From contig NC_016599.1 of NCBI RefSeq assembly GCF_000236705.1, positions 2,728,001 to 2,792,000 of the forward strand: DNA of 64,000 bases, written 5' to 3'. The position numbers and the translations under genes are program-made. Positions 6,483 through 47,217 of the stretch are shown in pieces. Source of the stretch: Owenweeksia hongkongensis DSM 17368 (GTDB lineage: Bacteria; Bacteroidota; Bacteroidia; Flavobacteriales; Schleiferiaceae). The notes beneath the pieces were generated by a model. It saw nothing but the letters and a program-made list of their open reading frames with translations. It was not told the origin of the DNA and made no database searches. The stretch's first letter is position 1. Each line of letters opens with the position of its first letter.

Positions 6483-8798
6483 ATGAGATTAACAATATTC
6501 GCTTTTTTATACTTGGCTTTCAGTACATTGGGCATAGCTCAAGCTTCTTCCACCATCGGAGTGTGGCTCGATCATCTGCCTTATGGAAATATAAAAGATA
6601 TGGTGGAGCGCGAAAAAGTGTTGTATTGCGCTACCGATCAAGGCCTTTTTGTGTACGATCATAATGAGTTAAATATAGAGCGCTATTCAAAAGTAAATGC
6701 GCTAAGTGATGTTTCTCTTACCTGTCTCGGTTGGTCTGAGCAGTATCAAACCCTTATCATCGGATATGAGAACGGGAATATTGATTTTTTTGACGGAAGC
6801 GACATTGAGAACATGCAGGACATCAAAGCCAGTCCAAGCTACACGGGTCTTAAGCAAGTAAATCACATAGAAACAAATGGAAAATACGCATACATCTGTA
6901 CCAATTTTGGTATTGTACAGTATGATATGGCTCGTGGTATTGTGGAAGAAACTTTTGTAATCGGGCCAAATGGAGTCACCTTGGGGGTGGATCAACTGGC
7001 GTTTTCAGAGGATAGCATATTTGCCGCAACATCTTTAGGTCTCTTTGCCGCCAATAGAAATGCACCCTTACTCACTTTCGAAAGTTGGAACCGGATCAAT
7101 AGTTTGGGGGATGATATTCCCTTTGTGTGTAGTATTGATGACAGGGTTTTCGTGTATCAGGATAGTAGTGATGAAATATTATACAGTGATGGGCAAGGGT
7201 GGACTGCAAGTATGCTGGATCCACTTTTTAGGGGTGACTTGAATGACATGAGAAGTGATAAAGGTTATCTACTTATCACCAATAATTTTGGCTCACAAGC
7301 CGTGGAAAAAGATGCTTTGACCATTATTCAAAATTTTCAAGCGGGGACCCAATCCCTTGATATACCAAACCTCACCTGTGCAGCCCTAAGCTCTAGTATT
7401 GGATTTTACTGGATAGGCACTAGCGGAATTGGTATGATTGCCTGGATTAAGTTTGATGGGGTGAACTCTTATGCGGAGCAGATTTTGCCCAACAGCCCCA
7501 ATCAAAAATTTGTAATACAAATGTATCATGATGACGAACGTTTGTTTGTGGCGCCTGGGGGTATCACCGGGGTCTGGAGCCCTTCATTTGTAGATTATGG
7601 TTATTATGAGCTAAGAGAATATAATTGGACAAGTCATACTTCTTCGGAGTATAATCAATACATGGATTTAGTAGCGTTTATTACAGATCCCGAGGATAAG
7701 GATCATTATTATGCCTCTTCTTACGGTAATGGTATTCTAGAGTTTAAAGATGGAGATTTTGTGAAACTGATTAATTCAGAGAATAGCGATATGGTACCAA
7801 TGTCGGGCGGAACGGAGCAGCGAATTGGCGGTTTTTCTGCTGATGAGGATGGTGGAATTTGGTTTTCAAATAGCCAAACAGAAAGGCCACTTGGGGTGCT
7901 TCGCCAGGATGGGAGCATAGAAATGTTTTCTTTAGGATCACTTACCAGCAGTTCAGATGCAATAAAGAATATAATGTATACCACCCAAGATCAGGTGTGG
8001 CTTCAGGTAAGGAATGATGGAGTAGTAGTGGCTCAAATAAACGAAGATGGTGTGGTGAGTGACAGGAAGGCTTTGGGTACAGAGGAAGGCTTTGGAAACC
8101 TGCCAAGTGGTACCGTTTTGAGCTATGCCGAAGATTTAGATGGAGAGATATGGATAGGCACAATAGAGGGCATGGCTGTATTGTATAGTCCACAAAATAT
8201 TTTTGAAGCTGAGCGCAATTATGATTTTCAAATAATAGTGATAGATGAGGATGGTGATGGAAATGGTGAGCGTGTGCTTGGAACAGAAATCATAAATGAC
8301 ATTGAGGTAGATGGAAGTAACAAAAAATGGTTTGCTACCGGAAGTAGCGGGGTGTTTTACACTTCCGAAAACGGAAAGGAACAGATCTATAATTTTACCA
8401 TAGATAACAGTCCATTGCCGAGTAATAATATTCTAGATATTGAGATTGATGACGTTACCGGAATGGTGTACTTCGCTACCGATCAAGGAATCGTGTCTTT
8501 TCAGGGGGGAGCTACTGAGGGAGTGGGCAACATGGTAGATGTATTTGCTTACCCGAATCCTGTAGAGCCTGGTTATGAGGGGCCAATTCTTATTAGAGGC
8601 TTAGTAACCAATGCTCAGGTAAAAATCACCGACATTGAAGGGAATATCGTTTATGAAACCATAGCTGAAGGTGGACAAGCACTATGGTCGGGCAAGAGTT
8701 TTAGCGGCCAGCGCGTAAAATCTGGGGTATACCTAGCTTACATTACTAATGATGATGGTTCAGCAACTGCTGTCACAAAAATTATGATCATTAACTGA
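6483..8798 (+). CDS. porZ: T9SS component PorZ (beta-propeller protein with C-terminal sorting domain)
   Basis: 771 aa. Signal peptide MRLTIFAFLYLAFSTLGIAQ, then the PorZ N-terminal propeller signature IGVWLDHLPYGNIKDM...YCATDQGLFVYD...IERYSKVNALSDV. Two propeller-like repeat blocks of two-component-regulator type follow, then a T9SS type A sorting domain from about residue 690 (VFAYPNPVEPGYEGPI...VKSGVYLAYI). In Porphyromonas PorZ sits on the cell surface, binds anionic LPS and aids the PorU sortase. I start at ATG 6483; ATG 6471 or TTG 6435 would add non-signal residues. The stop overlaps the recO start (TGATG), a linkage I recall from other Bacteroidetes. Symbol from N-terminal signature and context. 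Confidence 0.82.
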   Translation: MRLTIFAFLYLAFSTLGIAQASSTIGVWLDHLPYGNIKDMVEREKVLYCATDQGLFVYDHNELNIERYSKVNALSDVSLTCLGWSEQYQTLIIGYENGNIDFFDGSDIENMQDIKASPSYTGLKQVNHIETNGKYAYICTNFGIVQYDMARGIVEETFVIGPNGVTLGVDQLAFSEDSIFAATSLGLFAANRNAPLLTFESWNRINSLGDDIPFVCSIDDRVFVYQDSSDEILYSDGQGWTASMLDPLFRGDLNDMRSDKGYLLITNNFGSQAVEKDALTIIQNFQAGTQSLDIPNLTCAALSSSIGFYWIGTSGIGMIAWIKFDGVNSYAEQILPNSPNQKFVIQMYHDDERLFVAPGGITGVWSPSFVDYGYYELREYNWTSHTSSEYNQYMDLVAFITDPEDKDHYYASSYGNGILEFKDGDFVKLINSENSDMVPMSGGTEQRIGGFSADEDGGIWFSNSQTERPLGVLRQDGSIEMFSLGSLTSSSDAIKNIMYTTQDQVWLQVRNDGVVVAQINEDGVVSDRKALGTEEGFGNLPSGTVLSYAEDLDGEIWIGTIEGMAVLYSPQNIFEAERNYDFQIIVIDEDGDGNGERVLGTEIINDIEVDGSNKKWFATGSSGVFYTSENGKEQIYNFTIDNSPLPSNNILDIEIDDVTGMVYFATDQGIVSFQGGATEGVGNMVDVFAYPNPVEPGYEGPILIRGLVTNAQVKITDIEGNIVYETIAEGGQALWSGKSFSGQRVKSGVYLAYITNDDGSATAVTKIMIIN

Positions 8799-9520
8799 TG
8801 CTTGCCAAAACCCGTGCTTTGGTATTGGGCTCTGTAAAGTATGGCGACAATAGTTTAATTGTGAAAGCCTACACCAAAGACGAGGGAATCAAAAGTTTTA
8901 TTGTGGGGAGTATTCACTCCAAAAAAGGTGTTCTAAAACCAGCCATGGTTCAAGCATTGAGCCAGCTGGATCTGGTGTATTATTCCAAAGGAAAGGGTGA
9001 GCTGAAAAGGATAAAGGAGGCTGCCATGGCACATCATTATAATGAACTGTGGTTTGACCCTGTAAAGAGTAGCTTAGCTATGTTTCTGGCTGAAATACTG
9101 GCTCATGTTTTAAAGGAAGAAGAAACCAACCCAAACCTTTTTGATTTTATAAGTGAAGCTTTTATGGAGCTGGATGAACTGGAGGAGGGTATTGGCAATT
9201 TTCACCTTTTCTTTCTGCTTCGGCTTTCTGGCTTTTTGGGTTTCGCTCCTCAAATGCCTTTGAAGGGGCAGGAGTATTTTGATTTGCAAAGCGGTATTTA
9301 TAGCTCCAGCAATGTAGAGCATTATCATTACTTAAATAAAGAAGAAAGTAAGCTGTGGCTGCAAATGCAGGAGGCAGAAAAAGCTAATTCTTTAAAGATG
9401 GGAATTGCAAAAACAAGTCGTTCACAGCTGTTGGAATTTATGCTCAATTACTACCGATTGCATATTACCGATTTTGGGCAGCTACGCTCGTTGGAAGTGG
9501 TGAAATCACTTTTGAGTTAA
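8798..9520 (+). CDS. recO: DNA repair protein RecO
   Basis: 240 aa, normal RecO length. The N-terminal OB fold begins TRALVLGSVKYGDNSLIVKAYTKD; the helical C-terminal domain follows. RecO with RecR loads RecA onto SSB-coated DNA during gap repair. No CxxC zinc cluster is seen in the C-terminal half; the family is variable there. The ATG overlaps the porZ stop by one base, so expression is probably coupled to this secretion gene. Confidence 0.93.
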   Translation: MLAKTRALVLGSVKYGDNSLIVKAYTKDEGIKSFIVGSIHSKKGVLKPAMVQALSQLDLVYYSKGKGELKRIKEAAMAHHYNELWFDPVKSSLAMFLAEILAHVLKEEETNPNLFDFISEAFMELDELEEGIGNFHLFFLLRLSGFLGFAPQMPLKGQEYFDLQSGIYSSSNVEHYHYLNKEESKLWLQMQEAEKANSLKMGIAKTSRSQLLEFMLNYYRLHITDFGQLRSLEVVKSLLS

Positions 9521-9731
9521 GAAAGCAGACTACCTTTAGGATATAGTAGTAAGTCATTTTTGTCAATAACAACAAATGATTTGGCAAATAAATTAGCTAC
9601 AATTAGGTGCTTACAATTTGTTAAAGTTTGATATAATCGATTTTTGTTGGAGATGATTTTTTAATATTGAGGATAAGGTAACGCGCAAATTTGAAGTTTG
9701 TATGTAACCTATGTGAATTAACCCTCTCTCA

Positions 9732-23354: not shown

Positions 23355-23458
23355 ATAGCCCAGCAGAGCCTGCCCTGTACTTAATGCGGGGAGACTCGTA
23401 CGCTTGGTGGTGAGAGGCGCACTCCGTTCCTAATTAGGGGCGGAGTCGTTTGCTCTAT
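23355..23458 (+). mobile_element. Probable 3' remnant of a group II intron (domains V-VI), no reverse transcriptase
   Basis: A non-coding, GC-richer stretch carries the string CGTACGCTTGGTGGTGAGAG (23398-23417). A stem ACTCCG / CGGAGT (23421-23426 and 23441-23446) then encloses CCTAATTAGG, and the end is GTCGTTTGCTCTAT at 23445-23458. This resembles the domain V/VI and 3' terminus of a bacterial group II intron class common in Bacteroidetes. The 5' part and the intron-encoded protein are absent. The 5' limit is approximate. Recognition is by pattern only. Confidence 0.42.
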
Positions 23459-23470
23459 TGGCACTAGTAT

Positions 23471-24526
23471 TTAATTCCAAACATTACCCAATTTCAAACT
23501 CAAACCGTTCTCACGTACTTTTCTGCTTCCAATGTCTGTGGTAGCTCTAATACCTCTACCATATTCTTTGGTAGCTTCATTGTATTCAACTTCTGCATCT
23601 CCTTTATCAGTTTTAACGAAATAATCTATTTCACCTGCAAATTCTAGAAGTTTTTCTCTTACTTCTTGTCGTGACTCTTTTGCTAATGGAAGGCTAGCGA
23701 CTTGTTTGGCAAATAACCCAAATAATGTATAATAGTCTGCTTTTTTACTCCAACGAGTATTTGATATTTCAGGCAGTATCTTTAGCAGTTCTCCATTGAC
23801 TATATCAAAAACTTCAACAATTTCCTTTTCTCTTCCAAATTCCTCTTCATATAATTCGTAAAACTTATCTAGATTATCTTTTTTGTTTTGAAAACCATGT
23901 AGCGCAAAAATGGCAAGTTCACTTATGTATTCAACATCCAACATTCTTCTAATATCATTTGGAGTGAAAACATCAATTTTACCCCAATACTCTTTATCAG
24001 AAATTAGATTCATTGTTTTAATGAATGAGCCCCAGTATGTTGCTTGTCTTAATTCTTGTTTATTCAGGGATACGACATTTTTATTAAGTCTTTGAAAAAT
24101 CGCCCTAAGTTCAGTATCAGGTATATCAGGTAAAACTCTGATTACAAAATTGTATTGAAAGAAAACCTTCTTCTGTTCAGCTGATAAATCCTCGAAATAT
24201 AAGTCTGCTAAATCTGGACTTTCTTTTGAATCAATGCAGTATTTTCCTTCTAAAAAATCAAGTACAGCTCTTGTTCTCTGCTGTCCATCAACAATAATGT
24301 ATTTAGCTTTTCCTTTCTCATCTACAGTTTCCTGCATATATATTTCTGGAATGGGATAACCATTTAAAATTGTATCAATTAAAAAGCTTTTTTGTCTAGT
24401 AACCCAAACTGGGTTTCTTTGAAAGGGCGGCTTCATATCAAGCTCACCTCTGTCATATGCGCCCTTGAACCAAGCTACGTTTCGATTTGTGGTATTTAAG
24501 TAATTTTTCATTTTATGTTGTTTCAA
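23471..24526 (-). CDS. DUF262 protein (ParB/GmrS-like NTPase fold)
   Basis: 351 aa. The N-terminal DUF262 domain has PPFQRNPVW (33-41) and the DGQQR motif (80-84), which in GmrS/SspE/Brx relatives forms the NTP-hydrolysing pocket. The C-terminal half is helical. No DUF1524 or HNH nuclease motif is visible, so a nuclease partner would have to be separate. Start at 24526 overlaps the upstream nucleotidyltransferase by 14 nt; ATG 24511 would follow its stop by one nt. The pair forms a two-gene unit likely related to phage or plasmid defence (inference). Confidence 0.8.
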   Translation of the reverse strand: MKQHKMKNYLNTTNRNVAWFKGAYDRGELDMKPPFQRNPVWVTRQKSFLIDTILNGYPIPEIYMQETVDEKGKAKYIIVDGQQRTRAVLDFLEGKYCIDSKESPDLADLYFEDLSAEQKKVFFQYNFVIRVLPDIPDTELRAIFQRLNKNVVSLNKQELRQATYWGSFIKTMNLISDKEYWGKIDVFTPNDIRRMLDVEYISELAIFALHGFQNKKDNLDKFYELYEEEFGREKEIVEVFDIVNGELLKILPEISNTRWSKKADYYTLFGLFAKQVASLPLAKESRQEVREKLLEFAGEIDYFVKTDKGDAEVEYNEATKEYGRGIRATTDIGSRKVRENGLSLKLGNVWN

Positions 24527-25094
24527 AGAGTTTTACTCTAAGGTTTTCGAGATTGTTTATTTGATATGCTCTTAAGGATTCATAATCCTTATACAGTCGA
24601 ATATTAATTGTCCTATTATTAGCAGGTGATTTTTTTGATTGTTCCATGAGTGCTAATGACCATTCTTTGCCGAATGGAAGGAGCTCTAGTATCTTATCCG
24701 TTGCGATTGTTCCCCAATAAATATACTTTTCCCTATGGTCTCGCAGACTAGCCTTTTGTCTCGGTGTTAAGTCAAACCTTTTGGTGCCAAGGTTCCTAAG
24801 GCACTTCCATGCTATATCAAAGTATAACTCGGAAATGATTGCAATATCAATGTCAGATTCGTCATTAAAACTTTTATAATCCTTATATGGATTTAGACTA
24901 AACCCACAACTTGAGCTTCCTGTAAAAACCATTGATTTACTGTCAATTTCAAGTTTCTTAGAGAGTTCTTCTTTCCATTCGATATATGAAATTCTGTCAT
25001 CTTCAAATACAAATGGGACTCTGTCTAAAACCCATTTGGAACAAATAAATGAGCTTGAGTTGTCAATTAATTCATATTTGAAATCTTCAATCAT
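24513..25094 (-). CDS. Nucleotidyltransferase-fold protein paired with DUF262
   Basis: 193 aa. The core TGSSSCGFSLNP (58-69) followed by DESDIDIAII (78-87) is the GS...DxD signature of the DNA polymerase beta superfamily (Gly59-Ser60, Asp81, Asp83). A third acidic residue is not obvious. After a break the protein has WGTIATDKILELLPFGKEW and a basic C-terminus. Similar domains occur in toxin-antitoxin (MNT, AbiEii) and tRNA- or protein-modifying enzymes. It is first gene of the module, with the interspersed repeat directly upstream. I do not recognise the exact family. Confidence 0.68.
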   Translation of the reverse strand: MIEDFKYELIDNSSSFICSKWVLDRVPFVFEDDRISYIEWKEELSKKLEIDSKSMVFTGSSSCGFSLNPYKDYKSFNDESDIDIAIISELYFDIAWKCLRNLGTKRFDLTPRQKASLRDHREKYIYWGTIATDKILELLPFGKEWSLALMEQSKKSPANNRTINIRLYKDYESLRAYQINNLENLRVKLFETT

Positions 25095-25112
25095 TTATGG
25101 TCCTTTTCATAT

Positions 25113-25205
25113 TAGTGCCAACTAGTGTATAACGTCTATAGCGTTGTATCCACTATATAATTCCACTCCAAACTCTTTACAGAGCTTAGCATGTAAAGCT
25201 AAAAG
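25113..25205 (-). repeat. Interspersed repeat copy A, upstream of the DUF262 module
   Basis: In gene direction the core is AATTATATAGTGGATACAAC, then AACG-(7 nt)-CGTT, then CACTAGTTGGCAC. It aligns with copies at 33489 and 47158. The inverted-repeat arms (AACG 25131-25134, CGTT 25142-25145) differ in sequence from the other copies. A weaker outer part shared with copy B includes CTTAGC near 25190. It ends 18 nt before the nucleotidyltransferase ATG. Confidence 0.55.
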
Positions 25206-33408: not shown

Positions 33409-33488
33409 AATGTAAAAACATTTTCTTATTGGCAAGAGAATTGTTTTAAAAGAAAATTTTATCTGCTTGGAGAGTTTTTTTGTAGTAA

Positions 33489-33582
33489 GCACAACTAATG
33501 CCTAAACAACATATTGCTTATATCCACTATATAATTTAACGCTGTATCCCGCTCTAACTCTGCAATTGCTTAGCTTTTAGGG
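33489..33582 (-). repeat. Interspersed repeat copy B, upstream of the TetR-GNAT module
   Basis: Plus strand: GCACAACTAATGCCTAA, then AAACAA-CATA-TTGCTT (33504-33519, imperfect inverted repeat), then TATCCACTATATAATT. It is nearly identical to copy C (47158) over about 50 nt and also aligns with copy A, including an outer CTTAGC block near 33575. No open reading frame is inside it. Confidence 0.6.
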
Positions 33583-46505: not shown

Positions 46506-47147
46506 TTAGTTTTTATTTTTTTCTTCAATTATTTTCTCTGTCAAATCACGGAATGTCTTGATGTCGCCAGTCAGTGTTTCGTATCTGTTAGAGTCGAAAA
46601 TATTAATCGCATTCCAAAATCCTCTTTTCTTCCTTCGAGTTTCGATTTTGTCAATGGGTTTTGTTCCTGTCAGCGTGATTTCTTCTATTACAGACGAGAA
46701 ATAATTGTCCATATACGCTGTCAATGAAGAAGAAGGTCGAAGTTCAGATACATCTACTCCTTTGTCCTTAAGATTCTTTTTGATTGTTAGGAATACTCCT
46801 GCCTTTATGCACGGTTTACCAAATAGAGTCTTTGGTTCGTAGGTGTCTTTCTCAGCGTATTCTGTAAGAAGTCGGCAAACTTCACTAAGTTTTCTTGTCC
46901 TTGCAGGTTCTAAAACGTTTTGCCATTCTTCTTGACTTATCTGAACTCTAAATTCTTGATTCAAAAATTCGCTCAACTTTTTCCATCCCAGTAAGTCGTT
47001 GGCAGATCTCCACTCACGAACTGTCATTTCACCCGTAATTTCCGCCCAGAGATCAGCTTCTGGATCAAGTGGGCTACAAAGTCGGTGTTGTTCCTTGAAG
47101 ATTTCAAGAATTTCTTCTTCCGTATATTTAACTTTAGATTCGGTCAT
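46506..47147 (-). CDS. Unknown protein next to repeat copy C
   Basis: 213 aa from ATG 47147; an in-frame TTG adds six residues. Charged and helical, no signal peptide or membrane helix: TEEEILEIFKEQHRLCSPLDPEADL, WRSANDLLGWKKLSEFLNQEF, IDKIETRRKKRGFWNAINIF. No motif that I recognise. It lies alone between two intergenic regions and directly after the repeat, hence likely accessory. Function unknown. Confidence 0.6.
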   Translation of the reverse strand: MTESKVKYTEEEILEIFKEQHRLCSPLDPEADLWAEITGEMTVREWRSANDLLGWKKLSEFLNQEFRVQISQEEWQNVLEPARTRKLSEVCRLLTEYAEKDTYEPKTLFGKPCIKAGVFLTIKKNLKDKGVDVSELRPSSSLTAYMDNYFSSVIEEITLTGTKPIDKIETRRKKRGFWNAINIFDSNRYETLTGDIKTFRDLTEKIIEEKNKN

Positions 47148-47157
47148 TTTACAAACT

Positions 47158-47217
47158 GGGCACAACTAATGGCTAAGCAACATATTGCTTATATCCACGA
47201 TATAATTATTTGTCTAG
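47158..47217 (-). repeat. Interspersed repeat copy C, upstream of the unknown gene
   Basis: Plus strand: GGGCACAACTAATGGCT, then a perfect inverted repeat AAGCAA-CATA-TTGCTT (47175-47190), then TATCCACGATATAATT and TATTTGTCTAG. Near-identical to copy B in the first 50 nt; the last block matches copy D. Ends 10 nt from the ATG at 47147. Confidence 0.6.

Follow-up and report, generated by a model that had tools for sequence, protein, structure and literature searches.

A conserved nucleotidyltransferase–DUF262 gene pair on an integron-type cassette of Owenweeksia hongkongensis, a candidate module for phage defence

A predicted nucleotidyltransferase (NTase) gene and a DUF262 gene on the chromosome of Owenweeksia hongkongensis DSM 17368 form one functional module, as is evident from their pairing, gene order, correlated divergence, conserved motifs, and mobility. 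The module is conserved and unnamed, and probably protects against phage by an undescribed route. Both genes lie on the minus strand of a 64,000-nucleotide stretch (positions 2,728,001 to 2,792,000 of NC_016599.1), hereafter the window: the NTase gene is first in the operon (24513..25094; 193 aa) and the DUF262/GmrSD_N gene second (23471..24511; 346 aa). In the open reading frames of the window, the NTase stop codon is followed after one base by the DUF262 start, an ATG at 24511 (a TTG at 24526 is the alternative), which bears out the linkage of the two genes put forward in a preliminary description of this DNA. The neighbours of the pair are a DUF4932 ORF and a TPR-like ORF; no defence island surrounds it within the window.

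The DUF262 protein had been described as bearing DGQQR and lacking a nuclease domain. Both points held: Pfam matched it to GmrSD_N (E=1.7e-21) and returned neither DUF1524 nor any other nuclease domain, and DGQQR occupies residues 75-79 (24289-24275). Two further DUF262 motifs, FQR..VW and FxRxN, were present, and the structure model matched BrxU and ParB-type CTPases. In GmrSD, BrxU, and SspE, DUF262 acts as a switch that binds NTP, and in the solved cases its partner is a defence protein (PMC10952713). The best PADLOC matches were NsnA of Menshen (2.7e-37) and PD-T4-2_A (9e-22); PADLOC would name the DUF262 part NsnA or PD-T4-2 A and overlook its real partner.

That partner is likely a divergent NTase of the Pol-beta type, a call that draws on an invariant GS...SDxD motif together with weak fold matches. 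The motif (24920-24846, minus strand, within 24513..25094) places GS at residues 59-60 and SDID at residues 80-83, as the preliminary description had recognised in outline. Residues G59, S60, G64, S80, D81, and D83 were invariant across an alignment of 19 relatives with 17-30% identity. The hG[GS]...[DE]h[DE] motif of Pol-beta-type nucleotidyltransferases is therefore present (G59 S60, D81 D83); the third catalytic acid varies in part of the alignment and is not fully conserved. The window NTase found no match in Pfam, its MNT families included, in NCBIfam, or in PADLOC, and matched phrog_32008, a phage family without an assigned function (E=4.8e-55). Four of 11 members of the NTase family touched Pfam NTP_transf_2, at best with 0.0034. 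Relatives could be reached by profiles only; tblastn against phage and plasmid records gave no match, and the NTase profile, run against PDB sequences, had a single match, judged to be chance. In the AF2 model (pLDDT 90), the order of elements (a helix, a strand ending at GS, a strand bearing DxD) agrees with the Pol-beta-type pattern. Nearly all top rows of a VIA comparison with solved structures were Pol-beta-type NTases, among them CutA, CdnD, poly(A) polymerase, Tam41, Rel, and DNA polymerase lambda, yet the best Z was only 2.9; DwCdnB was also among the weak matches. Foldseek searches of solved structures with the model, and a fold search of BFVD, yielded no match under E 0.001. Structure prediction, proposed earlier as a check on both proteins, thus favoured the expected fold for DUF262 and gave weak matches (Z <3) for the NTase. 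A second, different NTase pairing was noted in Bacteroidota, where an NTase relative lies directly 3' of a GT51 transglycosylase-domain gene (L003/L049 in G376, L004 in G198; PF00912 match of 6.7e-28 in L003).

Counted as distinct sequences, at least 28 NTase–DUF262 pairs were found in Bacteroidota, Gammaproteobacteria, and prophages. The NTase gene was 5' in every pair found, and the gap between the two genes, taken from mechanical ORF calls, ranged from -104 to +11 nt. The question of co-occurrence raised in the preliminary description can thus be answered: the families adjoin in every close relative found. Relatives of both genes adjoin in Cellulophaga (72% and 81% identity), and close relatives of both also adjoin in a Bacteroidetes MAG. 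The NTase profile matched 10 of 395 genomes from the order to which Owenweeksia belongs, the window's own included, and in eight of these a DUF262 gene follows directly; an NTase whose pair is present in only 8 of 395 genomes is not a housekeeping protein. The pair is also present on a Pseudoalteromonas plasmid, on a small Cronobacter plasmid, in three porcine E. coli genomes, within prophage regions, and, among 56 viral contigs with a related DUF262, in 18. When the search was started from the NTase, all four viral contigs with an NTase match had an adjoining DUF262 match. With pairs on cassettes, prophages, and plasmids, the earlier suggestion of a mobile accessory module stands.

The distance matrices of the two proteins were strongly correlated (r=0.927), and none of 5000 permutations was comparable. 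Among the window, L016, and L017, dN was 0.14-0.23, while synonymous sites were saturated or nearly so; because of this saturation, dN/dS could mostly not be calculated, and for the NTase of L069/L074 it was 0.06-0.10. Together, the pairing, the correlated distances, and the low non-synonymous change at saturated synonymous sites indicate that both genes have been kept together. The pair adjoins the portal gene of P2-type prophages in L066 and L067, integrase genes in L071, L094, and L101, and a C5-methyltransferase gene in L089, and in L045 a gene bearing an Mrr-like restriction domain lies downstream of it; these settings agree with a function in defence. In the prophage of E. coli ETEC1738 (L132), the pair (7993-9638) is located between the replication and antitermination Q genes, and the tree shows no difference between its DUF262 and that of viral contig L074.

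The short inverted repeat that brackets the window pair (TTGGCACTA at 23458-23466, TAGTGCCAA at 25113-25121) represents R' and R'' of an integron-type gene cassette. On the minus strand, an R'-type core, G^TTGGCACTA (25113..25122), forms the 5' boundary directly 5' of the NTase gene, and an R''-type core, TAGTGCCAA (23458..23466), lies 4 nt past the DUF262 stop codon. In integron recombination, the first bases of a cassette are the R' half from its own attC site, and they are complementary to the terminal R''; we read the unit as a cassette because its ends match what such recombination leaves. TTGGCACTA occurs only once in the window, and a lone 9-mer repeat could be chance, but the same geometry at seven unrelated loci is not. 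With different letters, it recurs in L016 (TTAGCACCA), L006 (TTGTAAAAC), L011 (TTATGGC), L020 (TTGTGCATA), L022 (TTAGCTGC), and L023 (TTAGCAA). When G^TT was required and the stop-codon region was included (R'' may overlap the stop), cassette-type ends were found in seven of the 10 chromosomal or plasmid pairs, window included, and in none of the 17 other pairs (15 viral contigs, the E. coli prophage, and the Cronobacter plasmid). None of the 90 combinations of a 5' end with the 3' end of another member of the set had them, nor did any of 2000 derangements. The repeat noted in the preliminary description is exact; a transposon with these 9 bp as its ends was considered and dropped, as the R'/R'' geometry at seven loci favours cassette ends.

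Full attC anatomy could be recognised by inspection in L011 and L020 and in a second cassette at 276 kb of this genome (GCGCCTAAC...GTGCATACCC-TTC-GGGATACGCAC...CCGTTGGCGG); the attC of the window (R''-L''-L'-R') is interrupted by an intron tail. In their G^TTRRRY-type start complementary to the 3' R'', in an R'' that overlaps or closely follows the stop, and in the complete attC-like sites at these three loci, the units resemble integron cassettes and CALIN. Unlike in integrons, the cassettes of this genome are scattered singly and it has no integrase over the TIGR02249 cut-off, nor has any other of the 12 genomes or records searched. Profile matches below that cut-off lack the part near profile positions 180-237. 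For this reason, and because their neighbours associate them with XerC/D, phage, or IS91, the candidates were not accepted as IntI. Upstream of its array, the Pseudoalteromonas plasmid (L054) has only an N-terminal piece of an integrase, interrupted by a stop. At L044 (G235), the pair is flanked by two copies of a unit of tyrosine recombinase and IS91-type transposase; the integron-integrase profile matched 39 times in the G235 genome, each time below the cut-off. Integrons are seldom reported in Bacteroidetes (PMC9024848), and hardly at all in Flavobacteriia, where the module is seen to move on integron-type cassettes.

Related DUF262 genes that lack the NTase adjoin genes for other enzymes: HEPN-like proteins with an R-N-x-x-x-H motif (firm Pfam support in L131 only; PF18735, 5e-18), a RelA/SpoT-type synthetase, which follows DUF262 in L076 (3962-6051; 3e-12), and a protein kinase in L010 (7e-31). 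Partner labels mapped on the tree of DUF262 need five changes, as compared with 16.4 for shuffled labels; partners have therefore rarely been exchanged. In L009 and L010, an FtsK/SpoIIIE-like gene accompanies DUF262, with a Ser/Thr kinase gene next in L010; these combinations, like that of L076, are on mobile DNA.

The known systems closest to the pair, PD-T4-2 and Menshen, have its DUF262 part in common and not its partner. PD-T4-2, a proven anti-T4 system, likewise consists of two genes with a stand-alone DUF262 of similar size (Vassallo et al. 2022, PMC9519451), and its partner is a HEPN protein (PMC10952713). At the PD-T4-2-type loci found in this analysis the HEPN gene is downstream of DUF262, whereas in the window the NTase gene is upstream and neither the ORF list nor domain searches revealed an adjoining HEPN ORF; HEPN was also not recognised as a consistent neighbour of other NTase–DUF262 pairs. 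The DUF262 best matched in PADLOC, NsnA of Menshen, is 629 aa long in L128 and is followed there by NsnB (ATPase-type profile) and NsnC, neither of which adjoins the window pair. A truncated Menshen was considered and dropped; the ATPase-type NsnB profile matches every genome. GmrSD, BrxU, SspE, TgvAB, and GrwAB share a DUF262 with DGQQR, and BrxU the fold; in place of a DUF1524 nuclease, the window has an NTase. As the preliminary description had supposed, no system consisting of this pair alone has been described, either in PADLOC 2.0.0, which has no such NTase, or in the literature searched, mostly that outside subscription journals and preprints; a prior name is possible.

Our favoured interpretation, to which we give even odds, is that the pair is a mobile conflict module, directed against phage or other mobile elements, with DUF262 as an NTP-gated sensor and the NTase as effector. 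We infer its defensive role, the division into sensor and effector, the chemistry, and the target as follows. DUF262 would be an NTP-binding protein of the ParB/Srx fold, like those of GmrSD, BrxU, Menshen, and PD-T4-2, and would sense an invader through modified DNA or some cue of infection, with NTP binding or hydrolysis as its switch. The NTase would be restrained by DUF262 until released, whereupon it would place one or more nucleotides on an essential RNA (perhaps tRNA 3' ends) or on a protein, halting growth so that the phage fails. A sensor with exchangeable effectors is the simplest reading because related DUF262s adjoin other enzymes and DUF262 is an NTP-binding switch. By analogy, the plan of the NTase pair is best read as parallel to that of PD-T4-2, in which the effector would be the HEPN protein.

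The main competing explanation, possible though a good deal less probable, is a toxin-antitoxin pair similar to type VII, in which the NTase would be an antitoxin that nucleotidylates and silences DUF262, the toxic or DNA-acting part. The NTase gene is first and translationally coupled, as is usual for an antitoxin, and as is the small NTase of HEPN/MNT systems; according to PMC3710099, the MNT gene of MNT-HEPN pairs is almost always 5' and its product probably modifies the partner, a parallel to the NTase-first order. Maintenance value would also suit cassettes and prophages. However, the partner in the window is DUF262 and not HEPN, it has no nuclease or known toxic domain, and the NTase is unmatched to Pfam MNT families; moreover, the HEPN, RelA/SpoT, and kinase partners of related DUF262s are themselves plausible toxins. 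Signalling akin to CBASS, with a nucleotide product of the NTase bound or answered by DUF262, would accord with the GS...SDxD motif, with the CdnD and DwCdnB fold matches, and with a weak match of the L006 NTase to the PADLOC oligonucleotide-cyclase model (E=0.0018), but we consider it unlikely: the window NTase has no match to a cyclase model, is about 100 residues shorter than the listed CD-NTase chains, and has no Cap effector gene beside it by domain searches of the neighbours. Integron cassettes have many functions, and small NTases include antibiotic nucleotidyltransferases. A non-defence role, be it in host regulation or, with the help of an accessory NTPase, in the modification of antibiotics or metabolites, is slightly more doubtful still, given the defence partners of DUF262 in solved cases (PMC10952713) and the frequency of the pair on prophages (the 18 of 56 viral contigs).

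The pair brings a further partner enzyme to the DUF262 family, the members of which act against phage in several ways, and it points to a common plan, one sensor with exchangeable effectors, that is directly testable. More tentatively, stand-alone DUF262 may be a general NTP-gated sensor chassis for HEPN, NTase, RelA/SpoT, and kinase effectors, the NTase version being an undescribed nucleotidylation immunity that circulates as integron-type cassettes among Flavobacteriia and other bacteria without a recognisable integrase.

Because the bracket is that of a cassette, both flanking elements become explicable, the one as an intron inserted into attC and the other as a cassette recombination site. 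A group II intron-like 3' tail (23370..23457) lies on the plus strand, in the reverse sense to the cassette genes, with its end precisely at R''. Introns of the group IIC-attC type enter the R'' of the attC bottom strand in that orientation (PMC7923331), and the window tail would be such an insertion. The intron remnant of the preliminary description is upheld by its 3'-tail appearance and by two further genomic copies of the DNA left of 23458 (86-89% over 44-51 nt), and Rfam reported nothing on it. Near-identical IS110-family transposase genes (388 aa) are located near those two copies (L040, L041 with L050, L051).

The interspersed repeat noted to the right of the pair is real. It is a hairpin recombination site, AATTATATAGTGGATACAACGCTATAGACGTTATACACTA (25123..25162, minus strand), directly 5' of the cassette, with five copies in the 4.0-Mb chromosome, three of them within the window (the others there at 33470-33540 and 47145-47215) and two at 276 and 574 kb of the genome (L052, L053). 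The copies have the form AATTATATAGTGGATATAA...CACTA-GTT, and each leads into a G^TT core; no R'' partner was found at three of the five sites. One side of the hairpin is conserved, and compensatory changes occur in both stems, with a covariation score, from five sequences only, of 0.369 as compared to 0.156 when shuffled (0 of 500 shuffles). One copy precedes a cassette with a complete attC, the product of which is a 2TM/SLATT-like protein; behind others lie a TIR-domain protein and a 219-aa protein without a Pfam match (one each). TIR-domain and 2TM/SLATT-like genes are both common in bacterial immunity.
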